34,093 bases of DNA from Thermoflexus hugenholtzii JAD2 (lineage in GTDB: Bacteria; Chloroflexota; UBA11872; UBA12225), in NCBI GenBank assembly GCA_945907765.1, contig CAMDTO010000014.1, positions 1 to 34,093 of the forward strand, read 5' to 3'. Under the pieces are notes generated by a model. The model had not been told where the DNA came from, did not search any database, and saw only the letters and a program-made list of their open reading frames with translations. Shown here in pieces: positions 3,901 to 33,958 of the stretch. Numbering within the stretch: the first letter of the stretch is position 1; every line of letters begins with the position of its first letter. The translations under genes and the position numbers were made by a program.

Positions 3901-4145
3901 CAAGTGCCGTCTCTGTGACTTCACACCAGGCAGTGGTGCGAGGTTGGGATTTCGTGAAGTCGTTGGGTCTCTGGCACAATCGCCATGCCTGTCAGGTGAT
4001 GTGCATCTGGCGGCACGGCTGCGCGGGCGGTCCGGCGGGTTCCGCGAGACGACGCAAACAAGGCAAACCAGCCATCAATCGCACGACCGGGCAGGGGAAT
4101 TGGCCCGATGGTGGGACTGCTTGGATGCACGGAGGAGTGAGGCAC

Positions 4146-5336
4146 TTGAAGAGTTCGCTTTCATCGTTCATGAAGCGTCCGCTGCTTGGCGCGTCGGCTG
4201 CCCTGGCGGTTGCCGGGTTGGCGCTGACGCCCATGCACGCGGCTATGCAGGGAGCGCCCTGCAAGGTTGCGCAGGTGTACACCAGTCCCACGAATGACAA
4301 GGGGTGGTCGTGGTCGCATGAGCAGAGTTTCCTTTCCATCAAGAAGGACATGCCGAGTGTCGACCTTTCTATCCGCAAGGACAGCGTGCCGGATGACAAC
4401 AAGCAGGCCGTGATCGATCTGTTGGAGAGCATGGTCGCCCAGGGTGCCAAGGTTGTTTACACCACGAGCTTCGGATTCATGGAACCGACCCGTGAAGTCG
4501 CGCGCAACCACCCTGACGTCATGTTCTTCCACGCGTCCGGCTACCCGGACCCCTCGGACCCACCAAACATTGGCTACTACTTCGCCTCAATTGAGGAAGG
4601 TCGCTATATCACTGGTGTCGTGGCCGGGATGGTTGTGCCATCTGGCACCAACATCGGCTACGTGGCCGCATACCCGATCCCGGAAGTCTTCCGTGGCGAG
4701 AACGCGTTCGCGCTCGGAGTTGCGAAGACCAATCCGCAGGCGAAGATATTCAACAAGTGGACCTTGACGTGGTTCGATCCGAAGCTCGAGAAGGACGCCG
4801 CCGAGGCGACCCTTGGAGCGCCGATCAACGCGTTGCTTGTCACCCAGCATCAAGACTCGACCGCTGCGCAGCTCGCCGCTGAGGCTGCCGGACGCTATGG
4901 CATCGCCTACCACGCCGACATGAACGATTCCGCCCCGAATGCGACCTTGACGGCTGCAACGTGGAATTGGACCGTTCACAACAGGCCGACAGTCGAAGCC
5001 GCGTGCAGTGGTGCATGGTCTCAAGGTGGGAAGGTAGTCATTCCAGACCAGTGGCGTAACTGGAGCGGATCGTTCCAAGACGGCACGGTTGGCGTCGCGC
5101 CCCTGAACGAGGCTGCACTCGCCAAGCATCCGCGGGCCACTGAAATCAAGGACCGCTACGACGCCGAAGTCGCCGCGTTCAAGTCCGGCGAGAAGACCAT
5201 GGTCACGATCTTCACCGGCACGATCAAAGACAATACCGGCAAGGTCCGCATCGATGGTGTGCCAGACATCGGAAAGTTGTACGACGATAACGGCATGTGG
5301 TTCGTAAGTAACGTCGTCGGTACCACCCAGCCTTGA
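4146..5336 (+). CDS. BMP family ABC transporter substrate-binding protein (nucleoside/simple-sugar type)
   Basis: ORF track 3915-5336. The best start is TTG at 4146, preceded by GGAGGAG at 4131-4137. Signal peptide, then BMP-like VAQVYTSPTNDKGWSWSHEQ...GKVVIPDQWRNWSGSFQDGTVG. Confidence 0.88.
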   Translation: MKSSLSSFMKRPLLGASAALAVAGLALTPMHAAMQGAPCKVAQVYTSPTNDKGWSWSHEQSFLSIKKDMPSVDLSIRKDSVPDDNKQAVIDLLESMVAQGAKVVYTTSFGFMEPTREVARNHPDVMFFHASGYPDPSDPPNIGYYFASIEEGRYITGVVAGMVVPSGTNIGYVAAYPIPEVFRGENAFALGVAKTNPQAKIFNKWTLTWFDPKLEKDAAEATLGAPINALLVTQHQDSTAAQLAAEAAGRYGIAYHADMNDSAPNATLTAATWNWTVHNRPTVEAACSGAWSQGGKVVIPDQWRNWSGSFQDGTVGVAPLNEAALAKHPRATEIKDRYDAEVAAFKSGEKTMVTIFTGTIKDNTGKVRIDGVPDIGKLYDDNGMWFVSNVVGTTQP

Positions 5337-5383
5337 TCATCAGGTGACCGTTTGATGGTTGCCGTTTTCATGATGGCGGTCCT

Positions 5384-5418
5384 TCGGGGCACTCCTTGGG
5401 GGTGCCCCGACTCTTTTC
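5384..5418 (+). terminator. Intercistronic rho-independent-like terminator/attenuator downstream of the BMP gene
   Basis: Perfect 9-bp stem TCGGGGCAC (5384-5392) / GTGCCCCGA (5402-5410), 9-nt loop, followed by CTCTTTTC. Confidence 0.7.
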
Positions 5419-5517
5419 CGGCTATGATCGCCCCATCGGTCCCGCGGATCTTCCCCGGGGCGAGCCCCGATGCGCGGCACTCACGTATGCTCAAGCAGCA
5501 GTCTCGACTGCCGATTG

Positions 5518-7236
5518 ATGAATGCAACGATGCCTGAACCGATTGCGGCTGTGATGAACCCCGCACCCGCGCATGGCTCGGATGGAAATGCGGCCGTTTC
5601 CCTGACCGGCATTGTCAAACGGTTTGGGGATGTCATGGCGAGTGACGGTGCCAACTTCGAGGCCGGCCCCGGTGAGATCCATGCCCTTCTAGGTGAGAAT
5701 GGTGCGGGCAAGACCAGTCTCATGAATGTCCTGGCGGGGGTGTACCGCCCTGATGCTGGACTAATCCGGATTGACGGCCGTTCGGTGTCAGTCGGATCAC
5801 CTGAAGCGGCGAAGCGTCTGGGCATAGGCATGGTCCATCAGGAGCAACGCCTCGTGTCCCGGTTCACGGCTCCGGAGAACATTTCGCTAGGACATCGCTT
5901 TCCAAGGTGGTTCACGTTGCGTCGCCGCTTCCGCGACCTCGCTGGTCGCCTCTCAGTGGATTTCGGTTTGCCAATCGATGCCGAAACCCCGGTTTGGGCA
6001 ATGCCCCTGGGTCGGCGCCAGCGCGTCGAGGTGGTGAAACTCCTGCACCATGGTGCGCGGATCATCATCCTCGACGAACCGACCGCAAATCTTGCGCCGA
6101 CCGAGGTGGAGACCTTCTTTGACGCCTTGCGCGGTCTTGTCGGTGCAGGACGCACGGTCATCTTCATCACGCACAAGTTGGATGAAGTGCTGCGCTTCAC
6201 GGACCGTGTGACCGTCATGCGGGGAGGGCGTGTGTTCCGGACCTTGGCGACGCGTGACGCGAGCCGTGAGGTCCTGAACCGCTTGATGGTGGGGGAGGCA
6301 TTCACGGTCAATCAGCGGGATGTCTCGGCATCTCAATCCGCCAGTGAAACGGCGCATGACCTGTACGGTGGAGATATCCGTACCCGGGCGACGGCTACGC
6401 CAGGCGACGTGGTGCTGAAACTCGACCGGGTGTCGGTCAGTGACCCAACCCAACCGGTGAACCTTACTGACGCGACAATCTCGGTACGCACGGGCGAGGT
6501 CCTAGCGGTGGCGGGCGTCGCTGGAAACGGCCAGACGCAACTTGCCGAAGCAATCACCGGCCTCGTCACGATTGCATCGGGCAGGATCCAGCTAGGCGTC
6601 CGTGACCTCCGCGGACTTTCAGTTCGTCAGATCGCTGACCTTGGGGTTGCCTACGTTCCCGAGGACCGGCGTGAGGTAGGGCTTGTCCTTAGCCAGACCG
6701 TGGCGACAAACCTTGCACTGCGACGGTATGACCGTAAACCGCTGAACCGTTTCGGATTTGTCGACCGTGGGCAGATCAGGCGCGACGCGATCGAACTGAT
6801 TGATCGGTACGGCATCCGACCCGCTGATCCCGATGTGGTGGTGGGGCGTCTGTCGGGTGGAAACCAACAGCGGGTGATCATCGCGCGTGAGTTTGCTGGT
6901 ATGCCCCGGCTGATAATCGTCGACAACTTCACGCGTGGTCTCGATCCGCGGTCAACCCGGCAATTCACGGATGAATTGTTCGCACATCGTGACCGCGGGG
7001 CGGCGGTTATCTGGATAACCAGTGACTTGTCGGAGGCGCTTGAGTGCGACCGCATTGCCGTCCTGAACCGTGGACGTGTGGTTGCGGTCCTGGATCGTGG
7101 GGATGCCACCCGCGAACGCGTTGGCTTGCTGATGTCGGCGGGAATTGCCTCCGGGGTCCCGGATGACGTTCCGCTTCCCGGCCCGACACGATCGGGCACG
7201 TCTCATGACCGCACCGACACGAAGGTGTCGGCATGA
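5518..7236 (+). CDS. ABC transporter ATP-binding protein, two nucleotide-binding domains (RbsA/NupO-like)
   Basis: Two ABC domains: Walker A LLGENGAGKTSLMN, Walker B RIIILDEPTANL, second signature LSGGNQQRVIIAREF. ORF opens at 5470; the ATG at 5518 or 5530 is the likelier start. Confidence 0.92.
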   Translation: MNATMPEPIAAVMNPAPAHGSDGNAAVSLTGIVKRFGDVMASDGANFEAGPGEIHALLGENGAGKTSLMNVLAGVYRPDAGLIRIDGRSVSVGSPEAAKRLGIGMVHQEQRLVSRFTAPENISLGHRFPRWFTLRRRFRDLAGRLSVDFGLPIDAETPVWAMPLGRRQRVEVVKLLHHGARIIILDEPTANLAPTEVETFFDALRGLVGAGRTVIFITHKLDEVLRFTDRVTVMRGGRVFRTLATRDASREVLNRLMVGEAFTVNQRDVSASQSASETAHDLYGGDIRTRATATPGDVVLKLDRVSVSDPTQPVNLTDATISVRTGEVLAVAGVAGNGQTQLAEAITGLVTIASGRIQLGVRDLRGLSVRQIADLGVAYVPEDRREVGLVLSQTVATNLALRRYDRKPLNRFGFVDRGQIRRDAIELIDRYGIRPADPDVVVGRLSGGNQQRVIIAREFAGMPRLIIVDNFTRGLDPRSTRQFTDELFAHRDRGAAVIWITSDLSEALECDRIAVLNRGRVVAVLDRGDATRERVGLLMSAGIASGVPDDVPLPGPTRSGTSHDRTDTKVSA

Positions 7237-8444
7237 GTGGGCGCTTCGCGGTTGGCACGCCGGGAGGAGTGGTTCTCCGGCGGACGCTCGCTTGGCTGAT
7301 CGGCATGGGGGGTGCTCTCGCGATCTTTGCCGGATTTGTCATGTTCCTCGGCAAGGATCCCGTGGCCGTGATCATGGCAACGGTCAAGGGAGCTTTCGGC
7401 AGCCCGCTGGGGCTGAGCCGCACGATTGGCCGCACGATTCCATTGCTGCTTCTGTCGGCCGGCCTGATCCCGGCATTCCGGGCCCGGTTCTGGAACATCG
7501 GCCTGAATGGATGCATGCTCATGGGTGCGGTCGGGGCGACTGGGGTCGCGCTGTACATTCCAACCGGTTCACCCGAACTGACTGGGCTGCTGATGTTCCT
7601 TGGTGCAGTCGTGTGCGGTGCGATCTGGGCGCTAATCCCCGGCTTGCTGCGGTTGCAGTTCCAGACACCAGAGATCATTGTCAGCCTGCTACTGAATTAT
7701 GTCGCGCAACGGATCGTCGACTTCCTGGTGTTCAGCGCATGGAAGAACCCGGCTGGTCGCGGATTCCCGGGAACTGCCAACTTCGAACAGTCACTTTGGC
7801 TATCCCGTTGGGACGTCACAAAGTTCGTCCTGCCATCCTGGCTCTCTCTGCCGGAAGGCTGGGGACCGCCGTTGCAGGTGTGGATGCGTGGCCTCGGCAA
7901 TAGCAACATCCACACCGGGCTTGCCGTAGCGGTCGTGGGAGTCGTTGCGATCTGGCTGATGATGAACCGCACGATCTGGGGGTTGCGCATTGACATCGCC
8001 GGTCAGGGAGCGCGGGCGTCTCGGTACCTTGGACTTTCCACCGGTTGGGTGATCGTGCTGGTCTCGGTCATCGGTGGCGGGTTTGCCGGGATCGCCGGAT
8101 GGAGCGAAGTGGCTGGGCTAAACCACCGTCTGGAGGCGGGCATCTCACAGGAACTCGGTTACACCGCAATCCTGGTGGTTGCGCTCGGTGCGTTGCGTCC
8201 CGGGTTGACCGCAGGCGCATCCGTATTGGTGGCCGGCCTTCTCATCGGTGGATCGCAATTGCAAGTCCAATTCAGCTTGCCGGTAGCGATGGCTGGGGTC
8301 CTGCTTTGGGCAATCCTCTACGGTGTCATGAACGCCCAGAACCTGGCCGAGCGATGGGCGCGTCCGGGGTTTCGCACGCCAGCCGTGCCTCCATCCCCGA
8401 CAGGAATTCCCGGGTTCGTCGGCGTGGCGACGGAAAAGGACTGA
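7233..8444 (+). CDS. ABC transporter permease (NupP/YufP-like, BPD_transp_2)
   Basis: ATGA overlap with the upstream ATPase; polytopic; GLIPAFRARFWNIGLNGCMLMGAVGA and QTPEIIVSLLLNYVAQ motifs. Confidence 0.9.
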   Translation: MSGRFAVGTPGGVVLRRTLAWLIGMGGALAIFAGFVMFLGKDPVAVIMATVKGAFGSPLGLSRTIGRTIPLLLLSAGLIPAFRARFWNIGLNGCMLMGAVGATGVALYIPTGSPELTGLLMFLGAVVCGAIWALIPGLLRLQFQTPEIIVSLLLNYVAQRIVDFLVFSAWKNPAGRGFPGTANFEQSLWLSRWDVTKFVLPSWLSLPEGWGPPLQVWMRGLGNSNIHTGLAVAVVGVVAIWLMMNRTIWGLRIDIAGQGARASRYLGLSTGWVIVLVSVIGGGFAGIAGWSEVAGLNHRLEAGISQELGYTAILVVALGALRPGLTAGASVLVAGLLIGGSQLQVQFSLPVAMAGVLLWAILYGVMNAQNLAERWARPGFRTPAVPPSPTGIPGFVGVATEKD

Positions 8445-8451
8445 CCGACCG

Positions 8452-9393
8452 ATGGATGTTGCGTCACTAAGTGCCTTCTTGGCGGTGGTCGTCAGCTCCG
8501 GCGCGGTCCTGTTGCCGGCAACGCTTGGCGCGATTGTCACTGAACTTTCCGGTGCGACCAACCTTGGCGTGGAAGGGATCATGCTCTTCGGGGCGATGGT
8601 TGCGTATGGAACTGCTTACACAACCGGTGATGCTGTCCTGGGGGTCATCGCCGGGTCGCTTGCCGGTGGGCTGCTGTCGCTCACTCATGCGATCCCGGTT
8701 GTCTATGGCCGGCTCTCACAGGAACGGCAACTTGTCCTTGGCCTGATCCTCGTATACCTAGGCGATGCCCTCAGCCGGCTCCTCGGTACGCCGTACATCT
8801 CCAAGGCGTCAAAGGCGCTCGACGTCCGTTGGGTTATCCCAGGGCTCAGTGACTTGCCACTCTTTGGCGAGGTGCTGTTCCGCCAGTATGGCCTTGTCTA
8901 CTGGGCCTACGGTATCGCCGTTGTCCTGACTTTCGTCCTGTATAAAACCCGTTTGGGCCTCCACCTGCGGGCAACCGGCGAAGACCCAGCTGCTGCCGAC
9001 GCCGCTGGCATCCGGGTCGACCTCTACCGGCTTGGCGCGATCTTTGCCGGTGGCGTCCTGATGGGGTTTGCCGGGTCAGTCCTTTCGCTCACGGTGGTTC
9101 GCACGTGGACGGAGGGAATGACGCGCGGGCGCGGTTGGATCGCACTGGGTCTCGTCACCTTCGCCACTTGGAACCCGCTCTGGGCGATAGCCGGAACGTT
9201 GCTCTTCGGTGGGTTCGAGGCTGCCCAATTCAGGTTGACCACGGATATTCCCGGTGCCCAGTACCTGCTTGGCATCCTGCCCTACCTCGCGCCGATCATT
9301 GCCCTTCCGATCGTCGGTCGCAGGCTTGCACGGCGACGGGCGGGTGCACCAGCGGGTCTGGGCCGGCCATACCTGCGTGAAGCGCGGGGCTGA
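8452..9393 (+). CDS. ABC transporter permease (NupQ/YufQ-like, BPD_transp_2)
   Basis: ELSGATNLGVEGIMLFGAMVAYG, LGLHLRATGEDPAAADAAGI and GRGWIALGLVTFATWNP motifs typical of the second permease. Confidence 0.9.
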   Translation: MDVASLSAFLAVVVSSGAVLLPATLGAIVTELSGATNLGVEGIMLFGAMVAYGTAYTTGDAVLGVIAGSLAGGLLSLTHAIPVVYGRLSQERQLVLGLILVYLGDALSRLLGTPYISKASKALDVRWVIPGLSDLPLFGEVLFRQYGLVYWAYGIAVVLTFVLYKTRLGLHLRATGEDPAAADAAGIRVDLYRLGAIFAGGVLMGFAGSVLSLTVVRTWTEGMTRGRGWIALGLVTFATWNPLWAIAGTLLFGGFEAAQFRLTTDIPGAQYLLGILPYLAPIIALPIVGRRLARRRAGAPAGLGRPYLREARG

Positions 9394-16609: not shown

Positions 16610-17839
16610 CTAACCGGCGGTCGTCGCATCCGGAAATGAAAATGTGGCTAGATGGCCCATACGATCTCGCTTGGTCTCGAGATACCGGATATTGTGTGGA
16701 TTGGCATGCACCGGAATTGGAAGTTGGTCGGTCACTTTCAGGCCGTAGCCCTCGATCGCAACGAGCTTCTTGGGATTGTTTGTCATGAGAACCATCTGCG
16801 AGACACCGAGGTCCGCAAGTATTTGCGCTCCAATTCCGTAGTCCCGCTTGTCTTCAGGAAACCCGAGGCGCAGGTTTGCATCGATCGTGTCGGCACCTTG
16901 ATCCTGCAAGACATACGCTCGAAGCTTGTTGTGAAGGCCAATCCCACGGCCCTCCTGGTGCAGGTAGACGACGACTCCGGTGCCCGCCGTTTCAATCCGC
17001 TCCATCGCCCACTGAAATTGCTGTCCACAGTCGCAACGCAAACTGCCGAACGTGTCTCCAGTGAGGCACTTCGAATGCATCCGCACCAGGACAGGTTCCT
17101 TCGCGTTCCGAAGGTCTCCCTTGACCAGGGCGACGTGCTCCTCTCCGGTAATCGTGTCCAGGTACGCATGGGCAATGAAGTCGCCTGACGCCGTCGGCAT
17201 CGGGACTTCCACAACCTTGCGAACGAGTTGCTCGTGGTGACGTCGGTATGCGATCAGGTCGGCAACCGAAATGATCGGAATGTCGTGCCGTTCACTGAAT
17301 TGTTCAAGGCTTGGCATCCGCGCCATGGTTCCATCGGCATCCATGATATCGCAGATGACGGCGGCCGGTGCCAGTCCCGCAAGGTTGGCGAGATCTACCG
17401 AGGCCTCGGTCTGACCTGCACGAACGAGCACGCCGCCTTCACGGGCGCGCAACGGGAAGATGTGCCCAGGCCGTGCAAGATCTTCGGGCCGTGTCGCCGG
17501 ATCGATCGCCGTACGGATCGTGTGCGCGCGGTCCTTCGCTGAAATCCCGGTTGTGACCCCGCGTCTCGCCTCGATTGACACGGTGAATGCAGTGCCCATC
17601 GATGAGGTGTTCTCGGACACCATCATCGGTATCCGGAGATCATCAAGACGCGCGCCACTCATGGGAAGGCAGATGAGCCCTCGCCCGTGGGTGGCCATGA
17701 AGTTGATCGCTTCTGGCGTCACCAATTCGGCAGGGATGCACAGGTCGCCCTCATTCTCGCGGTCCTCATCATCGACGATGATGACGAACGAACCCGCCTT
17801 GAATCGTGCGATCGCGTCCTCAATCGATGCAAGTGGCAT
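16610..17839 (-). CDS. ribBA: Bifunctional 3,4-dihydroxy-2-butanone-4-phosphate synthase / GTP cyclohydrolase II
   Basis: FVIIVDDEDRENEGDLCIPAE; HSKCLTGDTFGSLRCDCGQQ zinc site; YLHQEGRGIGLHNKLRAY. Start at MPLASIEDAI rather than the ORF start at 17896. Confidence 0.97.
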   Translation of the reverse strand: MPLASIEDAIARFKAGSFVIIVDDEDRENEGDLCIPAELVTPEAINFMATHGRGLICLPMSGARLDDLRIPMMVSENTSSMGTAFTVSIEARRGVTTGISAKDRAHTIRTAIDPATRPEDLARPGHIFPLRAREGGVLVRAGQTEASVDLANLAGLAPAAVICDIMDADGTMARMPSLEQFSERHDIPIISVADLIAYRRHHEQLVRKVVEVPMPTASGDFIAHAYLDTITGEEHVALVKGDLRNAKEPVLVRMHSKCLTGDTFGSLRCDCGQQFQWAMERIETAGTGVVVYLHQEGRGIGLHNKLRAYVLQDQGADTIDANLRLGFPEDKRDYGIGAQILADLGVSQMVLMTNNPKKLVAIEGYGLKVTDQLPIPVHANPHNIRYLETKRDRMGHLATFSFPDATTAG

Positions 17840-17879
17840 CGCGTGAACCTCTACTTTCCAATGATGTGATGACGTCCGG

Positions 17880-17897
17880 GGTGCCCAGCAGAGCACC
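17880..17897 (-). other. Hairpin in the ribE-ribBA intergenic spacer
   Basis: Minus-strand RNA GGUGCUC-UGCU-GGGCACC: 7-bp stem (one G-U) and tetraloop, about 41 nt upstream of the ribBA start. Confidence 0.4.
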
Positions 17898-17975
17898 GTT
17901 GCGAGGGGGTTTGTCGTTAGTGAAGCCCTGCCGACGCTTACTCCGGTCCTGTGGGTCGAGATACGTGCGGCAAGT

Positions 17976-18596
17976 CTAGGCGGTACTGCCTACGACTGAG
18001 GGAGGCAGCGCGGCTTCGACTGCCCGGGCAACATACTTCGCAAGGATGTCCGCTTCGAGGTTTACCGTCGCGCCAACCGGCCGTTGTGACAGAAGTGTCA
18101 CGTCCAATGTATGCGGGATAAGCCACACATCGAACCAGTCAGCGCCGACATTCACGACAGTGAGACTGACGCCATCGACTGAGATCGATCCCTTGGGGAC
18201 CAGGTAGCGGACAATTTCGGGGGGGGCGGTAAATGACTGCACGACCGCGTCGCCTTCGGTCCGACGGTCACGGATCGTGCCCGTTCCGTCCACATGCCCC
18301 TGCATGAAGTGGCCGCCAAAGCGTCCGCTAACCGCGAGGGCGCGTTCGAGGTGAAGCCGGTCCCCAACCCCGAGGTCACCAAGGTTGGTGCGCCTGAGCG
18401 TCTCGAGTGTCGCCTCAACGGCAAACGTCCGCTCGTCGCGCGTGACAACCGTCAGGCATGCGCCGTTCATGGCAATGCTGTCGCCGACGCGCGTGCCTTC
18501 AAGTGCAATCGTGGCCTCAATGGTCAGACGCGCACCATCGGGCGTCACCGAAATCTGGCGTACCGTGCCCGTCTCTTCAACGATGCCCGTGAACAT
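17976..18596 (-). CDS. ribE: Riboflavin synthase
   Basis: MFTGIVEETGTVR start, MNGACLTVV, GGHFMQGHVDGTG, KGSISVDGVSLTVV: two lumazine-binding repeats. Confidence 0.96.
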   Translation of the reverse strand: MFTGIVEETGTVRQISVTPDGARLTIEATIALEGTRVGDSIAMNGACLTVVTRDERTFAVEATLETLRRTNLGDLGVGDRLHLERALAVSGRFGGHFMQGHVDGTGTIRDRRTEGDAVVQSFTAPPEIVRYLVPKGSISVDGVSLTVVNVGADWFDVWLIPHTLDVTLLSQRPVGATVNLEADILAKYVARAVEAALPPSVVGSTA

Positions 18597-18612
18597 CCGG
18601 GGAACCTTCCCT

Positions 18613-19836
18613 CTACGTGGCAGGACGGATTGGCCTGTCTGGACCGGCTTCCGGCCAGGCAATCGCCGAAAGTGTCCCGTAAACGAGTGTATCAATGCCG
18701 AGCTTTGTTACGGACGGCGTAATTAGGTGAAAGGCTTGGGCAAGTGCGGACGCGCCAGAGCCACCGATTGCACCTGGTGCGCCCCGACCTCCGATGATCA
18801 TGGGTGCGATGACGGCCGCGACGGCGTCGACGAGGCCCGCATCAAAAAACGCACCATGGATCGTGGAGCCACCTTCAATCAGCATGCTCGTGACACCGCG
18901 GTCAGCGAGAAGAGCCAGGACGCCCTCCGGCTGAGGTCGTCCATTGTGTCCGCCGGGCACCGCAACGACCTCCGTTCCCGGGCTGGACAGTGCAGTGCGA
19001 CGGGATGCCCAGTCAGTGGTCCCGTCGTCGACCCCGAGAATGAGGGTGTGTCCGGGAAGCGCGCCATTCACGACCCGTGAGGTGGCCGGTGTGCGCAGAG
19101 ACGTATCCAGAATGACCCGAAGGGGATGGTTTGCTTCATCCCCATGGTCTAGCCGACGGGGACGGACGCCGGATATCATCGGATCCTGGGACGTCGTTCC
19201 GTTTCCATCAAGCCTTGTCGTAAGCGACGGGTCATCAGCAATGACTGTGCCAACCCCAACCAAGATGGCGTCCATGCGGTCTCGCACGCCGTGCGCCCAC
19301 CTGCGCGCCTCGGGACCGGTGATCCATTGGCTTTCGCCTGTGGCAGTCGCAATCCGTCCATCAAGACTGCACGCGAACTTGGCCACAACGAACGGAAGTC
19401 GATTGGTGACCCATCGTGCGAACCCCGCCATGATCGCCCGTGCTTCGGCACCGCCCTCGCCAACAATCACAGCGACACCTGCTTCGCGAAGACGGGCAAC
19501 TCCACGACCGGCAACGCGGGGGTTCGGGTCGAGCGTCGCGACGTGCACGCGCCGAATTCCCGAAGCGATGACTGCCTCGGTGCATGGTGGCGTGCGACCG
19601 TGGTGATTGCACGGTTCGAGCGTGACGTACATGGTTGAGCCGGGCGTGCCAGAGTTGGTAACGGAAGCGAGTGCGACCGGTTCGGCGTGGGACTGCCCGT
19701 ACGGTCGCGTTGCGCCCTGTCCGATGATGACGCCGTCGCGGACGATCACGGCCCCGACCGAAGGATTGGGACTGGTTCGACCGAGCGCACCCGCCGCCAA
19801 AGACAGGGCTCGTGCCATGAAAGGGCCGGTTATCAC
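18613..19836 (-). CDS. ribD: Bifunctional diaminohydroxyphosphoribosylaminopyrimidine deaminase / 5-amino-6-(5-phosphoribosylamino)uracil reductase
   Basis: SPNPSVGAVIVRDG, GQSHAEPVAL, YVTLEPCNHHGRTPPCTEAVI, RIATATGESQWITGPEARR. Start at 19836 (GTG) or 19818 (ATG). Confidence 0.96.
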   Translation of the reverse strand: MITGPFMARALSLAAGALGRTSPNPSVGAVIVRDGVIIGQGATRPYGQSHAEPVALASVTNSGTPGSTMYVTLEPCNHHGRTPPCTEAVIASGIRRVHVATLDPNPRVAGRGVARLREAGVAVIVGEGGAEARAIMAGFARWVTNRLPFVVAKFACSLDGRIATATGESQWITGPEARRWAHGVRDRMDAILVGVGTVIADDPSLTTRLDGNGTTSQDPMISGVRPRRLDHGDEANHPLRVILDTSLRTPATSRVVNGALPGHTLILGVDDGTTDWASRRTALSSPGTEVVAVPGGHNGRPQPEGVLALLADRGVTSMLIEGGSTIHGAFFDAGLVDAVAAVIAPMIIGGRGAPGAIGGSGASALAQAFHLITPSVTKLGIDTLVYGTLSAIAWPEAGPDRPIRPAT

Positions 19837-25124: not shown

Positions 25125-25256
25125 GCTCCCCAACCCGGGGCTCTGCCTCCGCGAACGGGCTCAGGGTGTGCCGGATACCTTGTAGTCTTGGAAAAGAGAG
25201 TTCCGTGCATGGCCAATACAGACCTTTGACGGATGCCATCACCGGACAACATATTC

Positions 25257-27869
25257 ATGAGTGAACCAACTGATCAAGCCGCTATTCGACCGCTGGCACG
25301 GAAGCGTGCGATTCGGGCCGCTACAGATACTTCCCAACTGGCTGCCGAAGTCCCGGGCGAGGGGGTACCGGTGCGCCCCAAACCACGGGCTCGTCGGCCT
25401 CGGTCAATTCAAGTCGTTGAGATTGCCGTGCTTCCCGTTCGTGACTTGGTCCTGTTTCCGCATATGGTATCCCCGCTGCCGGTAGGGCGTCCACGGTCAC
25501 TCAGGGCGATCGAGTACTCGCTTAGCCATGGTCACACCGTTTGCATTGTTGCCCAGCGGAACCCTGACCTAGATGATGTCGACCTCGACGACTTGCACGT
25601 CATAGGCACTGAGGCGCTCATTGGACGCGTGCTGAAACTTCCGAATGGAAACTCCTCTGTCCTGGTTCAGGGACAACGGCGCCTCCGGTTGCTTGAAACC
25701 GTCCATACCGAACCATTCATGCTGATCCGTGCGGTTGTCACCGAGGAGCCTCCCCCGAGCATCGGAGATCATAGCGAGCAAGTGAAACGCGTCGTCGATT
25801 TGCTCGACAAGTGTGCGAAGTTGAGCAAGAACCTCGCTGAGGACACGGTCGTTGCGGCGATGAATGTCGACGATCCCGGCCGATTGGCAGACATGGTCGC
25901 CTCGACGGTGAACCTTGAACTTGCCCAGCGACAAGCAACTCTGGAGATGCTCGATCCGGTAGCGAGACTGTCACACGTCGAGACAATCCTGGAGCGAGAG
26001 TTCCGTCTCCTGGAGTTGGAGCGTGAGATCCATCAGCAGGCGCAGCACGAAGTTGACGTCACCCAACGGGAGTTTTTCCTGCGGGAACAACTCAAGGTGT
26101 TGCAGCGGGAACTTGGCGACCTGGACGCGGGAAACCGCGACCATGACGAACTACGGACGAAGATTTCAGGCGCGTCCATGCCCGTGGTCGTGGCCGAGCG
26201 AGCCAACCGGGAGCTTGACCGCTTACAGATGATGCCGTCAGCGTCTCCTGAAGTCGGTGTGATCCGCACATATCTCGATTGGCTCATTGCCCTGCCATGG
26301 TCGGCGCGCACCGATGACCTTCTCTCGATTACGAACGCTGCGCGAGTCCTTGACGAACATCATTACGGGTTGCCGAAAGTCAAGGAGCGCATCTTGGAAT
26401 ACCTAGCGGTACGCAAACTAAGCTCACGGATGCGCACACCGCTGCTGTGTTTTGTCGGGCCACCCGGTGTGGGCAAGACGAGTCTTGGAAGAAGCATCGC
26501 CACTGCACTCGGTCGCAAGTTTGTGCGGGTCAGTCTGGGTGGCATCCGTGACGAAGCTGAATTGCGTGGTCATCGCCGGACGTACATCGGTGCCTTGCCG
26601 GGCCGGATCATTCAGGGGATGCGCCAGGCGGGCACAGTGAACCCAGTCTTCGTCCTCGACGAGATTGACAAACTTGGCATGGATTTCCGTGGGGATCCCT
26701 CGAGTGCGTTGCTGGAGATCCTTGATCCCGAGCAAAACGTCAACTTCTCCGACCACTATCTAGAGGTTCCATACGACCTCTCCCAAGTGATTTTTATCGC
26801 CACCGCAAACCAGTTGGACACCGTCCCCTCTCCGTTGCGTGACCGAATGGAGGTGATCGACCTCCCAGGGTATACGGAAGAGGAGAAGTTGCACATCGCC
26901 CGCAACTTCCTGGTTGGTCGGCAGCGGTCGGAGCATGGTCTTACTGAAAAGCACGTGAATTTCAGTGATGCGGCGTTACGCCGTGTCATTCGGGAGTACA
27001 CGCGTGAGGCCGGGGTGCGGAACCTTGAGCGCGAGCTCGCGACGATTTGCCGGAAGATGGCACGTAAGGTCGCTGATCTCCTGCCTCCGCCAGACCCGGT
27101 TGCGGTTTCGACTGACGGTGTAACTGGGACAGACGCGCCTGGTGTCCCCGTTGCGGTTCAAGTTGCTGCGGTTGAAGAAAATTCTGTCGCGGCAGGCGGT
27201 GATGCGGTCTCGGGTCGTCCAACGACCGTTACGCCGGCGGTGATCCGAGCGCATTTGGGTCCCCGCCGGTTCAGCCACACGGCCGCGTCGGCGGCCGATG
27301 AGATTGGGGTTGCGACCGGACTTTCATGGTCGTCGGTCGGTGGGGATATCACCACCGTCGAAGTGACCTTGATGGAGGGTAAAGGCCGCCTCGTCCTGAC
27401 TGGCCAACTTGGTGACGTCATGCGCGAATCGGCCCAGGCGGCGCTTTCCTACACCCGTAGCCAGGCTTCGGCCTTGAACCTCTCCGCGGATTTCCACGAA
27501 CGGACGGATATCCATATTCACGTTCCCGCAGGTGCCACCCCGAAGGACGGACCGTCAGCTGGAATAACGATTGCAACCGCACTCGTATCTGCGGCCACCC
27601 GACGCCCGGCTCGCCGCGATGTTGCGATGACCGGCGAGATCACACTCCGCGGGCGTGTGTTGCCGATAGGTGGCGTCAAGGAGAAGGCGCTCGCCGCTCA
27701 TCGTGCGGGCGTTCGAACCTTGATCCTGCCTGAGAGGAACCGTCGCGACATCATCGACATCCCTGCAGACGTACAGCGCGATCTCACGTTCGTGTTTGTT
27801 GAACAGATGGATGCCGTCTTGTCGGTAGCCCTGACGCCCCTGCGAACGCCGGATGTGCCACCGGTCTGA
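25257..27869 (+). CDS. lon: ATP-dependent protease Lon
   Basis: Lon N-domain [26 protein letters not shown]+ [17 protein letters not shown]; catalytic Ser [17 protein letters not shown] and Lys [11 protein letters not shown]. Confidence 0.97.
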
Positions 27870-27901: not shown

Positions 27902-27927
27902 CCCGTTCATGAGTCGTGGGCGTACCA

Positions 27928-29100
27928 ATGGCTGGCGGCGTGAATAAATCGGTTCACGATCGCCGTGTGACACGACGCGCCGTGATTGGGATCACAGTGA
28001 CCTTGCCCGTGCTGGGTGCATGCGTGGCCGACACCGTTGCGGTTCCGTCGTTACCGGCGCCATCGCGCGCAGTCCAGAACACCGAGGGAAACCCTTGGGG
28101 AACAAACACCTTCCTCCATAAGGAAGTCGAGGCGTGGAAGCGCGAACAGACCCTTTCGATGATAGAGGCCGCAGGGTTCACCTGGATCAAGCAGCAGTTT
28201 CCGTGGGAGGAGATTGAGCAACCACGGAAGGGTCAGTTCTTCGACGTCAAGTACGTACAGGGCACGTGGGAGAAGTTTGACGAACTCGTCCGCTTGGCAG
28301 GTCTGTCGGGTCTCAAGATGATTGCGCGGGTAGACCGTCCACCCGCCTGGGCAAGACTGGACAAGACCCGCCCGCAAGGACCACCCGACAACCTGAATGA
28401 CTTTGGCGACTTCTTGTTCTTGCTCGCATCCCGGTACAAGGGTCGTGTCAATCACTTCCAGGTTTGGAATGAACCGAACTTGGGCGAGGAGTGGACGGGT
28501 AAGCCTGACCCAGTTGGATACACGTCCATGCTAAAGGTGGCATACCGACGCATCAAGGAGGCCAATCCTCAGGCGTCCGTGCTTGCCGCACCCCTTGCCA
28601 TGAATGTGGAGCTTGGTCCGATCCATCTGAATGAAATGGATTTCCTTGATCAGATGTACCTGGCAGGCGCCAAGGGAACGTTCGACATCCTGTGCGCGAA
28701 CGCCTATGGCATGGACCGGACCCCGGCCGACCCACCCTCCCGGCAGATCCTGAACTTCCGCCGTGTCGAGCTCTTGCGTGCAGTGATGGAAAAGCATGGC
28801 GATAGCGCAACGGCGGTCTGGTTTAACGAATATGGCTGGAATGCAAGCCCAAAGGACATGCCCCGCGAGGAACTCATCTGGCAACGGGTAACCGACCGTC
28901 AGCAGGCGGATTGGACCGTTGAAGGCGTGGACTATGCCCGTCGAAACTGGCCTTGGGCCGGCGTTTTCTGCACCTGGTACTTTCGTCAAGTTGGGGATAT
29001 TTCCCCCTCAAAATCGGAGTACTACTTCCGTCTCGTCGACCCGGACTTCACGCCTCGGCCTGTCTACCACGCAATCAAGGCAGTGGCTGGGCGAAAGTGA
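27928..29100 (+). CDS. Glycoside hydrolase, clan GH-A / cellulase-like, Tat/lipoprotein-type signal
   Basis: RRVTRRAVIGITVTLPVLGAC signal; FQVWNEPNLGEEW (acid/base Glu) and AVWFNEYGWNASP (nucleophile Glu). ORF opens with GTG at 27916. Confidence 0.83.
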   Translation: MAGGVNKSVHDRRVTRRAVIGITVTLPVLGACVADTVAVPSLPAPSRAVQNTEGNPWGTNTFLHKEVEAWKREQTLSMIEAAGFTWIKQQFPWEEIEQPRKGQFFDVKYVQGTWEKFDELVRLAGLSGLKMIARVDRPPAWARLDKTRPQGPPDNLNDFGDFLFLLASRYKGRVNHFQVWNEPNLGEEWTGKPDPVGYTSMLKVAYRRIKEANPQASVLAAPLAMNVELGPIHLNEMDFLDQMYLAGAKGTFDILCANAYGMDRTPADPPSRQILNFRRVELLRAVMEKHGDSATAVWFNEYGWNASPKDMPREELIWQRVTDRQQADWTVEGVDYARRNWPWAGVFCTWYFRQVGDISPSKSEYYFRLVDPDFTPRPVYHAIKAVAGRK

Positions 29101-29151
29101 TCCGGTGATCTCCCCAGACCACGTCGCGGACGGCGCACATCGTTCCCTCTC

Positions 29152-32100
29152 ATGATCCGAACCGTTGTCGGTGTTTGCATTTGGATCACTGCGATCGGAC
29201 TGTCCGGTCTCGGCTTATGGACCGGCCGCCAGGTCCTCGATCGAGGGGTTGTCTACGGAGACCCCGGTCTGCCATTTCCGGAACATGACGTGACAGCCCA
29301 CGCCGTCAACACTCAACTTGAACTTGAACCAGATGATTTGTCGGTGGCGCGGACCCTTGATCTTGTAAGGGACGCCGGGTTTGGTTGGATTCGGCAGCAA
29401 GTGTCGTGGGCGGACATCGAACCCGGACACAAGGGCAATTTCTGGGACTTCGAACGGAATCGGCCAACATGGACACGGTGGGACACCATCGCGAGGTTGG
29501 CGCGTGACCGGAACTTGCGGGTAATTGCCCGTCTCGAACTCCCACCCGCTTGGTCTCGCCCAGAAGGGTCGTACAAGTCGCACCCGCCGGTCAACGTTCG
29601 TGACTATGCCGACTTCGCTGCAGCATTCGCGTCGCGTTACCGTGACCAGATCGGCTATTTGCAGATCTGGAATGAACCGAACCTTGCGGAGGAATGGGGG
29701 CGTCGGCCAGTCGACCCTGCGGCATACGTGGAGCTACTACGCGCCGGATACACCGCTGCAAGGCAGGGAAATCCCAAGGTTCGCATTCTGACCGCATCGC
29801 TGGCCCAGACGCTTGAACCGGACGACGAGACGGCCGCCGGACTTGACGACCTTGTCTATTTCGACCGGATGTACCTGTATGGCGCCGCGCCCTTCTTCGA
29901 TATCGCAGCAGCTAATGGGTACGGTCTATGGACCGGCCCAGACGACCATCAGGTCGGGTCCTGGTACACAAACCTGCCACGGATCACGCTGATCCGTGAG
30001 GTGATGGTGAGGTATCGCGATACGGCCAAGCCGATCTGGATTTCCGAGTTCGGATGGAACACCCAACCCGTTGACTGGACCGGAAGACCATCGCCGTGGG
30101 GTCGGGTCGACGAGGCAACGCAAGCGTCGCACCTGAGTGGTGGCTACGCGCGGGCTGCGCGCGAATGGCCTTGGCTTGGTCCCATGGCAGTCTGGCTGAT
30201 GAGACAGCCTCGCGCTGAGGTGGGCGACCCAACTCCGTTCTTTGCACTCGTCCGCGAGGATTGGACGACAAGACCGGCGTACGTTTCCCTGAAGGCGTCG
30301 GCGTCAACCCATGTCCTTGGTGTCGGCATGTGGCAGGAATCCGCACCAGGGGTGACCTACGAGGGCACATGGCAGGTCACGGATGACCCAAAGGCTGCGG
30401 GTGGTGCGCTTCGTGAGACACCAGCGCCGAATGCGCACGTTCGCCTTACGTTTGAAGGCACCCGTCTTGAGGTGGTGACTTCGGTTGGCCCGTCACGGGG
30501 CGTGGCTTATGTCACCATCGATGGGTCCTATCTGCTTGCAAACGAGCGCCCTCGGAACCGGTTCGGCCAGGCGACGCTCGACCTTGGATCGCCACGGCCC
30601 GCCGACGCAAACCGGTTCCTCGTAGCGTCGGGGCTTCCGGATGGACCCCACGAGTTTGAACTTACCGTCAGTGGTGACGTTGGCACCGGTTCATCTGCAC
30701 CGGGTGTTGCTTTCGATGGGGTGGTGGTGTCGAGGGACCGAACTTTCACAGCCGAGATCGTCTTCATCCTTGGGCTGATCGCGTCAGGGATCGGCTTTCT
30801 CTGGCTGTTGCGTGCCCCAGTCAGACGGGCGCTGGTCGACGGTATTGGCTACTTTCGCGACGACTGGACTATTCATAGTGGCCGGATCAAAGAGGAATTC
30901 GGTGCTGTCGACAGTCGAGCCCCTCTGGGCAGTTCGCACACGGGCGCCGATGTCGGTCCACCCACTGCGACCGATGAAATGTCATCCGGGACGATCCCTA
31001 ATCGAGATCTTGCGAACGAGGTCAAGGGACCATCCCAAGGTCAGACTGTAGGTTGGCTTCAACGGGACTGGATTTCCGACGCCATTCTTGCCTTCCCGGC
31101 GATCTTGCCTTTGGCGCCGGTAGCGCTCAGCACGACTGTTGGTCGGTTCTCGCCAGTTGAACTTGGTCTGCTCGGGTTGGTGTCACTCGCCTTCCTCAGG
31201 GCAATGCTTCGACCCCAGCCAAAGGATCCGTACGGTAAGAACGCAGCCGTTGCCCGCTTGCATTTTCAATGTGATGGTCTTGTGGTTGCTGCCGTTGCCC
31301 TCGGAGTTGCTGGAACGGTCGCGGCGGTGTCATCTGCCTACCCGAACCCGGCCTGGCGTGAGTGGAGGCAGGTCATCATTGAACCGGTCACGTGGTTCCT
31401 GCTCGCCAGATTGGTTGCACGACGCGAGGACGCCGGTAGACGTATCGCGATTGCGATGATCGCGGGCGCCTCCGTAGTGTCGGTCCTTGCGCTTGGGCAA
31501 TGGGTCTTTGGCATCGGTCTTGTTGACGCGGATGGGGTCGAGCGCGCGCGTGCGCTCTACCCAAGCCCCAACAACCTTGCACTGTTCATCGGCAGAGTTG
31601 CTCCGCTTGCGGTAGCACTCGGCCTGTGGCCGAGTCCCATCGGTAGCCCCCTGACGCGATTGTGGTTGCTCGCATCCGTCGTGGTCATTGTCACTGGGGT
31701 GGTCGTGACGTATTCCCGTGGGGCTTGGCTTGCGGTAGGGATTGCACTGATTTGGATTGGTCGCAAATGGCTCACTTCGAGGCAAATTGCGATACGGCCT
31801 TCGCGAAAAGTATTCCTTTTGTTCATGGCCACAGTTGCTGGTGCAATCATTGTGATGTCAATGTCGGAGAGGCTCCGGCTCATGTTCGTGTCTGGCGGAA
31901 CCGGCCTGTTGCGATTGAGTGTCTGGACCGGTGCCGTGGCGATGATCCGCGACCACCCATGGTTGGGCCTCGGGCTTGATCAGTTTGTCTACGCCTACCC
32001 GAACTACATGGGTGCCGACGCGTGGAGGGAGCCAAACCTTTCGCATCCGCACCAGTTCCTGCTCGATTTCTGGATCCGGTTGGGCGTCCCTGGGGTCCTC

Positions 32101-32358
32101 CTGTTGATGGTTGTCGGCATCAGGCTGATCTGGAGGCTTCGCGCTGGTGATCGCTCGCGGAACTTCAACCCCCTCGTGGTAGGCACTTCGGGTGCCTTCA
32201 TCGTATGGGCTATCCACGGCCTCGTGGACAACAGTTACTTTGTTTCAGACCTTGCGTACGCGACATGGGCGCTCCTGCTTATTCATGACCTCGCGACCGC
32301 GACTAACCCCTCCACCCTCAATTCGGGGCATGGCTCATTTGAAAAGTCGAACGACTGA
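29152..32358 (+). CDS. Fusion: N-terminal TM + GH-A-like glycoside hydrolase + beta-sandwich domain + O-antigen ligase/polymerase-like (Wzy_C) multi-TM domain
   Basis: Single 1068-aa frame: LQIWNEPNLAEEW and PIWISEFGWNTQP; GVTYEGTWQVTDDPKAAGGALRETPAPNAHVRLTFEGTRLEVV; then TM helices with YPSPNNLALFIGRVAPLAVAL, YSRGAWLAVG, DHPWLGLGLDQF and LSHPHQFLLDFWIRLGVPG. Confidence 0.85.
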   Translation: MIRTVVGVCIWITAIGLSGLGLWTGRQVLDRGVVYGDPGLPFPEHDVTAHAVNTQLELEPDDLSVARTLDLVRDAGFGWIRQQVSWADIEPGHKGNFWDFERNRPTWTRWDTIARLARDRNLRVIARLELPPAWSRPEGSYKSHPPVNVRDYADFAAAFASRYRDQIGYLQIWNEPNLAEEWGRRPVDPAAYVELLRAGYTAARQGNPKVRILTASLAQTLEPDDETAAGLDDLVYFDRMYLYGAAPFFDIAAANGYGLWTGPDDHQVGSWYTNLPRITLIREVMVRYRDTAKPIWISEFGWNTQPVDWTGRPSPWGRVDEATQASHLSGGYARAAREWPWLGPMAVWLMRQPRAEVGDPTPFFALVREDWTTRPAYVSLKASASTHVLGVGMWQESAPGVTYEGTWQVTDDPKAAGGALRETPAPNAHVRLTFEGTRLEVVTSVGPSRGVAYVTIDGSYLLANERPRNRFGQATLDLGSPRPADANRFLVASGLPDGPHEFELTVSGDVGTGSSAPGVAFDGVVVSRDRTFTAEIVFILGLIASGIGFLWLLRAPVRRALVDGIGYFRDDWTIHSGRIKEEFGAVDSRAPLGSSHTGADVGPPTATDEMSSGTIPNRDLANEVKGPSQGQTVGWLQRDWISDAILAFPAILPLAPVALSTTVGRFSPVELGLLGLVSLAFLRAMLRPQPKDPYGKNAAVARLHFQCDGLVVAAVALGVAGTVAAVSSAYPNPAWREWRQVIIEPVTWFLLARLVARREDAGRRIAIAMIAGASVVSVLALGQWVFGIGLVDADGVERARALYPSPNNLALFIGRVAPLAVALGLWPSPIGSPLTRLWLLASVVVIVTGVVVTYSRGAWLAVGIALIWIGRKWLTSRQIAIRPSRKVFLLFMATVAGAIIVMSMSERLRLMFVSGGTGLLRLSVWTGAVAMIRDHPWLGLGLDQFVYAYPNYMGADAWREPNLSHPHQFLLDFWIRLGVPGVLLLMVVGIRLIWRLRAGDRSRNFNPLVVGTSGAFIVWAIHGLVDNSYFVSDLAYATWALLLIHDLATATNPSTLNSGHGSFEKSND

Positions 32359-32404
32359 GCCCGGGTGGATTCAGCTTTGTGGCGCGGGGTATCACGGTTG
32401 ATCG

Positions 32405-33958
32405 TTGGATTGGTCGACTGAGGGACTTTTGACGACCGATCAGCAACGCGTTCCGGTGTCAGGCCGGACCACCTTACGCACCGTTTCGACGCCCAGTTCA
32501 GCTGTTGCCGTGACTGTTGGTGATGCCAGAGATGGCATGGTGTTCCCACACAGGACGGCCCCGCCACCCGCGTGGATGGTCGCGATCCCAATCGGGTTGG
32601 CCATCGCCCTCTTGCCCGCGTACTTGACCGCCGTGCTTCTCGTCGGTGTCGCTGGGGTTGCCGTCCTCATGGCACGTCCGCTATGGGCGCTCTTCGCGCT
32701 AGCGTTCACGGTCCCCTATCAGGGTCTCGCCGATTTCCGTTACCAGAGCGTCAACATTACGCCTACCGAGGCAGTTTTCCTTCTCCTGGTTATCGGATGG
32801 GGCACGGCAAGGGCGGCCGGTAGGGTGCCGGCACCGTCGCTCAGCCCCCTGGTTATCGCGATCGGCTTGCTGTTGAGCCTGCTGATCCTTTCCTGTGTGG
32901 TTGCGCCAAACCTGATCCTCGCTGGCAAGGAGCTGGTCAAGTGGGTTGAGGTCGCAGGCGTCACACTGATCGGTCAGAGCCTTCTTGTTCGCATTGCGGA
33001 CCGCCGGATGATGTTCCTGGTCATGACCGCGGCGGTGGTTTCGCAGGCGGTGTACGGATTGCTTCAGGCAACACAACACTGGGGACCTGACCATTTCATG
33101 ATCGGGTCATGGCTGATGCGTGCCTACGGAAATTTCGAGCAGCCAAACCCCTATGCTGGCTATCTCGGGTTGCACCTGCCGTTGGTGTTGTCGGTGGCAC
33201 TTTTCGGTGTCCGAACCCGCCCGGCGCGATGGTTCTGGGGAGGCGCTTCGGCCCTCCTCGCGGTCGCGCTGGTTACCTCGATGTCACGCGGTGCGTGGCT
33301 GGGGCAAATCACGGGCATTCTGACTGTCGTGCTGATTGAAAGCCGTAGTGCGCGCCACGCAGTCCTGACGTTCGGGGGTCTGGGTTCGGTTATTCTGCTT
33401 GCGTTGTGGCCGGTCCTTCCCTCAGAGGTGACCGACCGAATCGGCAGCATTTTCGGGTCGCTTTTCGCCGTCTTCTCACTGGCATCGACGACACTTACCC
33501 CAGCAAATTGGGCAGTCATGGAACGCCTGTCCCAGTGGTACGCGGGGTGGCAGATGTTCAGTGCGAACCCCATCGTTGGAGTTGGGATCGGCAATTACAA
33601 CACAGCCTATGCCACATATCGCCTGCCCGAATGGCCGGTGGCTCTGGGGCACGCGCACAATCACTACTTGACGATCGCGGCTGAGGCAGGACTGTTCGCG
33701 TGTCTCGCCTACATCATCGTCATCCTTGTCGCGATCCGGTCAACCCGCACGGCATGGCGAACGGCGACCACGAGATACGGTCGCGCAATTGCACTGGGAA
33801 CCCTTGGCAGTATCGGGGCTCTAGCGACGCACAATCTTGTTGACGTGCTGTTTGTGCATGGGATGAGCGTAACCATTGGCTTGTTACTGGCGCTGTCGAG
33901 CGTCAGTGATGAGCGTGATCCGGTTCCGTCTGGATTGATCTCACGGATCATGGAGTGA
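32405..33958 (+). CDS. O-antigen ligase/polymerase-like membrane protein (Wzy_C)
   Basis: Polytopic; NFEQPNPYAGYLGLHLPLVLS, MSRGAWLGQ, ANPIVGVGIGNYNTAYATY, GHAHNHYLTIAAEAGLFA. Start could be TTG 32405 or ATG 32537. Confidence 0.87.
   Translation: MDWSTEGLLTTDQQRVPVSGRTTLRTVSTPSSAVAVTVGDARDGMVFPHRTAPPPAWMVAIPIGLAIALLPAYLTAVLLVGVAGVAVLMARPLWALFALAFTVPYQGLADFRYQSVNITPTEAVFLLLVIGWGTARAAGRVPAPSLSPLVIAIGLLLSLLILSCVVAPNLILAGKELVKWVEVAGVTLIGQSLLVRIADRRMMFLVMTAAVVSQAVYGLLQATQHWGPDHFMIGSWLMRAYGNFEQPNPYAGYLGLHLPLVLSVALFGVRTRPARWFWGGASALLAVALVTSMSRGAWLGQITGILTVVLIESRSARHAVLTFGGLGSVILLALWPVLPSEVTDRIGSIFGSLFAVFSLASTTLTPANWAVMERLSQWYAGWQMFSANPIVGVGIGNYNTAYATYRLPEWPVALGHAHNHYLTIAAEAGLFACLAYIIVILVAIRSTRTAWRTATTRYGRAIALGTLGSIGALATHNLVDVLFVHGMSVTIGLLLALSSVSDERDPVPSGLISRIME

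Follow-up and report, generated by a model that had tools for sequence, protein, structure and literature searches.

Synthase-dependent systems encode a glycan-degrading enzyme (BcsZ, PelA, PgaB, or AlgL) together with the enzymes of glycan assembly, as does the locus described here; to our knowledge, the degrading enzyme of these systems is never fused to a Wzy-type enzyme, and their polymerases are of other types. We also know of no classical LPS in Chloroflexota, the phylum to which the locus belongs. The closest counterpart of its glycosidases is PslG of Pseudomonas aeruginosa (Psl locus; CAZy family GH39), a retaining endo-β-glucosidase (PMC11912335) with the catalytic residues E165 and E276 (PMC6813494, PMC11912335). 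PslA/D/E help to anchor PslG at the inner membrane, where it takes part in Psl synthesis; both its anchoring and its activity have been reported to be important for the production of Psl (PMC6813494, PMC9075953), whereas another group found that PslG has no role in synthesis (Baker 2015, cited in PMC6813494). The glycosidases analyzed here share with PslG the TIM barrel, the pair of Glu residues, the setting in a glycan-assembly locus, and the association with the membrane. However, PslG is made as an individual protein that is recruited to the membrane, whereas one of the copies here is fused to a Wzy/WaaL-type enzyme and the other is a predicted Tat lipoprotein. The second point of comparison is the WaaL/Wzy family (PF04932; structure 7TPG), with which the membrane domains have in common Wzy_C, the H(Q/N)-x9-G loop motif, the Arg residues, and many transmembrane helices, and from which the locus departs by the additional N-terminal anchored glycosidase and β-domain and by the presence of two distinct paralogues. 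Each part is of a known kind; in the open-access literature searched, we found no description of a glycosidase-Wzy fusion, of its phylum-wide spread, or of an inactivated clade of such proteins.

Three glycan genes at the end of the contig

The window, that is, the whole contig C14 (34,093 nt) of a draft genome of 3.3 Mb that is 87% complete, ends with three genes on the + strand: ORF1 (27916-29100, 394 aa), ORF2 (29152-32358, 1068 aa), and ORF3 (originally called at 32405-33958, 517 aa). The initial annotation had described these genes as co-directional with gaps of 46-51 nt. The coordinates and the shared strand hold, but the second gap of 46 nt does not: compared with same-genus genomes, the ORF3 frame upstream of the TTG codon at 32429 is disrupted by a 1-nt indel, and this codon is preceded by GAGGGA, so that 32429 is the likelier start (ORF3, 32429..33958) and the gap to ORF2 is ~70 nt. 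Directly 5′ of ORF1, on the same strand, lies the gene for the Lon protease (25233-27869), at a distance of 46 nt, as tight as the spacing among the three glycan ORFs, which implies a co-directional run of at least four genes. Promoter-like matches did not rise above those in shuffled sequence; terminator-like matches were ~1 sd above shuffles, with none in the gaps between the three ORFs, a result that permits co-transcription without demonstrating it.

ORF1 (27916..29100, +) is a stand-alone PslG-like glycosidase of clan GH-A, as judged by phmmer (PslG structure 5bx9, E 5.9e-10) and alignment, with a predicted acid/base at E186 (28471-28473) and a predicted nucleophile at E305 (28828-28830). 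It was called a Tat-type lipoprotein by pattern and eye, based on the twin Arg at aa 20-21, a hydrophobic stretch, and the lipobox LGAC, whose Cys (C36, 28021-28023) precedes the mature domain. The twin Arg and the lipobox recur in nearly all co-located stand-alone orthologues, in line with the proposal that a lipoprotein glycosidase acts outside. As initially claimed, ORF1 is a paralogue of the fused glycosidase: both motifs quoted for the pair are present, and the two domains are 36% identical over ~390 aa. A further, more distant PslG-like glycosidase is encoded elsewhere in the same genome (contig C95, L157:2488-4068).

ORF2 (29152..32358, +) is a glycosidase-polymerase fusion according to Pfam, profile searches, an AlphaFold model, and fold matching. 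It opens with a membrane anchor helix (aa 2-29, 29155..29238) seen in the AF2 model and hydropathy plot, followed by a PslG-like TIM-barrel glycosidase domain (aa 50-386, 29299..30309) supported by sequence, profile, and fold, in which the predicted acid/base E175 (29674-29676) and nucleophile E299 (30046-30048) align with E165 and E276 of PslG. The model then places a β-rich domain (aa 388-530, 30313..30741), of a type also found in non-fused relatives that combine glycosidase and β-domain (GH-beta), and a transmembrane helix (aa 533-552, 30748..30807; also apparent from hydropathy) that is predicted to bring the polypeptide back to the cytoplasm. A low-confidence linker (aa 569-637, 30856..31062; pLDDT <50), predicted to be cytoplasmic, leads to a WaaL/Wzy-type membrane domain, WzyA (aa 640-1050, 31069..32301), which was recognized by Pfam (Wzy_C, PF04932, aa 842-985; 76.1 bits, cut-off 31.7) and by profile. 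With a helix on each side of the glycosidase and the linker in the cytoplasm, the glycosidase and the His loop of WzyA would face the same outer side of the membrane, a placement that we infer from hydropathy and the model. The order of anchor helix, PslG-like domain, and WaaL/Wzy-type domain bears out the earlier suggestion of a tethered glycosidase-polymerase.

Both glycosidases are PslG-like: sequence and fold comparisons agree on this, although Pfam misses the domain (GH39, PF01229: 12.5 bits for ORF1, under the cut-off of 26; no match up to E 0.1 for ORF2). The N-terminal half of ORF2 matches PslG with E 1.2e-6 (phmmer), and a profile of 15 fusions retrieves PslG (E 8.5e-16), GH39 xylosidases, and WaaL 7TPG (E 1e-7). 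The best PDB matches of the ORF2 model (mean pLDDT 78) are PslG structures (E 6.9e-17), with ~19% identity between the glycosidase and PslG in the structural alignment. These comparisons make it possible to annotate proteins in which Pfam overlooks the glycosidase half.

The downstream gene was initially described as a second O-antigen-ligase-like protein, and ORF3, or Wzy2, fits this description by Pfam (68.9 bits for PF04932, cut-off 31.7), profile (WaaL 7TPG, E 3.8e-14), and fold (7TPG as the top match of its model, E 4.3e-8). Residues R798, R921, H965, H967, and H1022 are conserved in WzyA, and almost as strictly in Wzy2. The WzyA motif reads SHPHQ-x9-G-xx-G, with H967 at 32050-32052; H-[QN]-x9-G is present in both proteins of the window, and at the trailing position, which is G, T, or Y in the WaaL motif, ORF2 has G and ORF3 has A. 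Wzy2 also gives weak matches to the exosortase-associated O-glycosylation ligase TIGR03097 (40 bits) and to IctB (TIGR00947, 57 bits), far under the curated cut-offs of 188 and 366, respectively, and its identification as the bicarbonate transporter IctB was rejected on this ground. WzyA and Wzy2 would act as polymerases or ligases, two activities that sequence does not separate.

Extent and conservation of the locus

The contig end (33959..34093, +) is intergenic, and genes resume on contig C41 (L155), the start of which is 98% identical to the same-genus genome G003; comparison with the latter implies a gap of 30 nt between C14 and C41. C41 opens with genes for a flippase-like protein (132-1226) and a GT4 glycosyltransferase (1248-2375), so that the locus extends past the window, as anticipated when it was described as the edge of a larger one. 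In G003, too, Wzy2 is followed by a PF03706 flippase-like protein and GT4 (families assigned on G001 orthologues). Whereas Wzy, a single GT4, and the flippase-like protein are encoded side by side, no Wzz was found next to the locus: the only Wzz-domain match in the genome and the initiating transferase (PF02397) are encoded on other contigs. A separate locus on contig C11 encodes another Wzy, glycosyltransferases, and an initiating transferase without a glycosidase. Attachment of the glycan to the wall by LCP enzymes was considered and set aside, since no member of this family was found in the genome, an absence that carries little weight at 87% completeness.

Across Chloroflexota, we collected 63 distinct WzyA loci, 54 fused and 9 split; these were picked by similarity to the fusion, so that locus fractions are not unbiased frequencies, and in the split cases G058 and G218 frames spanning a stop were not called fusions from their length. 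The fused ORFs come from many families and assemblies, including the isolate Chloroflexus islandicus, Candidatus Chloroploca, a Ktedonobacter MAG, and many Anaerolineae MAGs, whereas Roseiflexus has the split form. Of 301 genomes sampled from the phylum as a whole, 186 gave at least one match to ORF2, many of them to the glycosidase half only. In a plasmid search, all matches were to the glycosidase half, and none reached 80% coverage of the query; one of these, a Methanomethylovorans disaggregatase-related protein (NC_019972.1:141908-142882; 27% identity, 4e-24), points to a possible link with archaeal matrix-degrading enzymes. One fused ORF (L091) is on a contig titled Alphaproteobacteria, yet its neighbor in the Wzy tree is the Chloroflexota genome G028, and the contig probably belongs to a mislabelled MAG. 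In another locus (L129), the N-terminal 500 aa of the Wzy ORF (896 aa) were discounted because they appeared to be read through from a non-coding frame.

The order lon, glycosidase, fusion, Wzy2, flippase-like protein, and GT4 is common to relatives from the same genus, family, and order wherever contigs reach; lon keeps its place before ORF1 in all order-level relatives with flank. The triad, whose conservation in relatives the initial annotation had proposed as a check, is found in every judgeable member of the order and recurs in distant families. Over the whole set, 23 of the 46 fused loci with flank have a glycosidase gene immediately upstream, and the full triad is present in 9 of the 39 with both flanks. 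Where WzyA is unfused, a GH-beta gene precedes it directly in seven of nine cases. Together with the fused forms, these cases show the pattern of fusion and fission that domains with coupled functions would be expected to leave. In two of the split loci (L042:9036-12248 and L058:5937-9119), the glycosidase and Wzy share one frame with a stop between them (TGA and TAG, respectively), representing either recent fission or the ancestral state.

The downstream genes behave as a unit. Within a flank of 6.5 kb, loci with Wzy2 encode the flippase-like protein in 11 of 14 cases and GT4 in 13 of 14, whereas neither is found in any of the 24 loci lacking Wzy2. The initial idea of one module is supported; the Wzy2/flippase/GT4 set, missing from 24 of the 38 loci with enough downstream flank, would form a second, separable module. 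Outside the order of the window, an SDR epimerase is often encoded between WzyA and Wzy2.

Two old families rather than a local duplication

The initial annotation read the arrangement as a symmetric cassette, in which the fusion is flanked by both separated partners, and ascribed it to duplication. Phylogenetic analysis does not support this origin. In a tree of 139 glycosidase domains (quick method), fused and stand-alone rows fall into different parts, with only four label changes, and among 88 Wzy domains the tree separates WzyA (100/100) from Wzy2 (100/98 for the main group), the two sharing ~25% identity. The duplication reading is thus mostly wrong: the fused and free glycosidases are old paralogues, the two Wzy proteins represent separate phylum-wide families, and a local or recent duplication of both halves is contradicted by both trees. 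The symmetry of the cassette is therefore a coincidence of two old families rather than a fusion standing beside its parents. Split forms are scattered among the fused ones in the Wzy tree, indicating at least three fusion or fission changes.

A proposed polymerase with a built-in chain editor, and the alternatives

The recurrence of the fusion across the phylum suggests that chain-making is physically coupled to chain-trimming. We consider it probable, if only just, that the locus encodes a membrane machine making a surface glycan, in which WzyA carries a built-in PslG-type chain editor. Such a machine would use lipid-linked units as the building blocks of the glycan. In ORF2, the WzyA half would be a GT-C-type polymerase (or ligase) with an outward-facing active site, and the glycosidase, held outside by two transmembrane segments, would act on the chain leaving the polymerase, cutting or transferring it and thereby setting its length or releasing it. 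Wzy2 may be a second glycan transferase, most likely a ligase or polymerase partner; ORF1 would act from the outer leaflet, trimming this same glycan further out, and the flippase-like protein and GT4 would complete the module. The fusion would hard-wire a PslG-type enzyme to the polymerase, replacing the recruitment seen in P. aeruginosa. In favor of this model are the match to PslG by both profile and fold, with the catalytic pair aligned, the match of both membrane domains (and the ORF3 fold) to 7TPG, and the conserved lipoprotein signal on the stand-alone glycosidase. Against it stand the dispute over the role of PslG in synthesis, the loss of catalytic residues in one clade of fusions, the single glycosyltransferase in the locus, and the many loci without the Wzy2/flippase/GT4 set. 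The fusion bears on the question of why glycan-assembly loci often encode a cutter of their own product and, for PslG, on the disagreement in the literature over its part in synthesis: a covalent, phylum-wide link between glycosidase and polymerase argues for glycosidase action at the polymerase.

That the fused glycosidase is mainly a module for binding or guiding the chain, with catalysis secondary and dispensable, appears rather unlikely to us, yet one lineage speaks for it. Glu occupies both catalytic positions, acid/base and nucleophile, in all 55 GH-beta rows, in 30 of 31 short stand-alone rows, and in 41 of 54 fused rows. The rows are related by descent rather than independent, so that Fisher tests on the raw counts are not to be read as probabilities. 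All losses among fused forms are confined to one 18-row clade (SH-aLRT 99). In this clade, the Asn of the NEP motif is replaced by D or H in 18 of 18 rows, 11 rows have lost the nucleophile and 4 the acid/base, whereas the fusion persists and WzyA R798, R921, H965, H967, H1022, and D1026 are kept in every scorable row; parsimony over the whole glycosidase tree requires at least five nucleophile and three acid/base changes. Hydrolysis is thus not required everywhere. However, the other fused copies, including that of the window, keep N-E-E, as do ORF1, all 55 GH-beta forms, and 30 of the 31 short stand-alone ones; the Chloroflexus fusion retains both catalytic residues. A combined proposition, namely that polymerases across the phylum possess their own PslG-type length or release device and that in one lineage this domain has become a non-catalytic chain sensor with the polymerase intact, is tentative and in our estimate clearly less likely than not. 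Nature thus offers active and inactivated as well as fused and split versions as ready test material.

Alternatively, the glycosidase could be a transglycosidase that hands completed chains on to the cell wall, a lipid, or a protein as acceptor, while Wzy2 would be the polymerase. The retaining mechanism expected of GH39-like enzymes (PMC11912335) and the lack of a detected LCP protein fit this scenario, but no sequence feature examined separates transfer from hydrolysis and the LCP result is weakened by genome incompleteness, and we regard it as improbable. Least credible of all, to the point of being highly improbable, is that the fusion reflects chance or misassembly and that glycosidase and Wzy work separately: split forms do exist, two of them with only a stop codon between the halves, but 54 distinct fused ORFs from many families and assemblies, among them an isolate, rule out an assembly artefact.

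Within the degenerate clade, at least three Anaerolineae loci (L095, L141, and L144) encode, at the position upstream of the fusion, a G5-domain lipoprotein with DUF348, G5, and β-propeller-like repeats. The reverse case is seen in L039 (3992-5245), where it is the stand-alone glycosidase that carries HEP and has lost its nucleophile; the fused copy of the same genome is intact. The remainder of the window includes riboflavin genes on the − strand (16610-19836), comprising a PF00926/PF00925 fusion of the ribBA type and a ribD-type gene, and a + strand cluster (3915-9393) encoding a Bmp-type substrate-binding protein, an ABC ATPase, and then two ORFs, which resembles a nucleoside-type ABC transporter.
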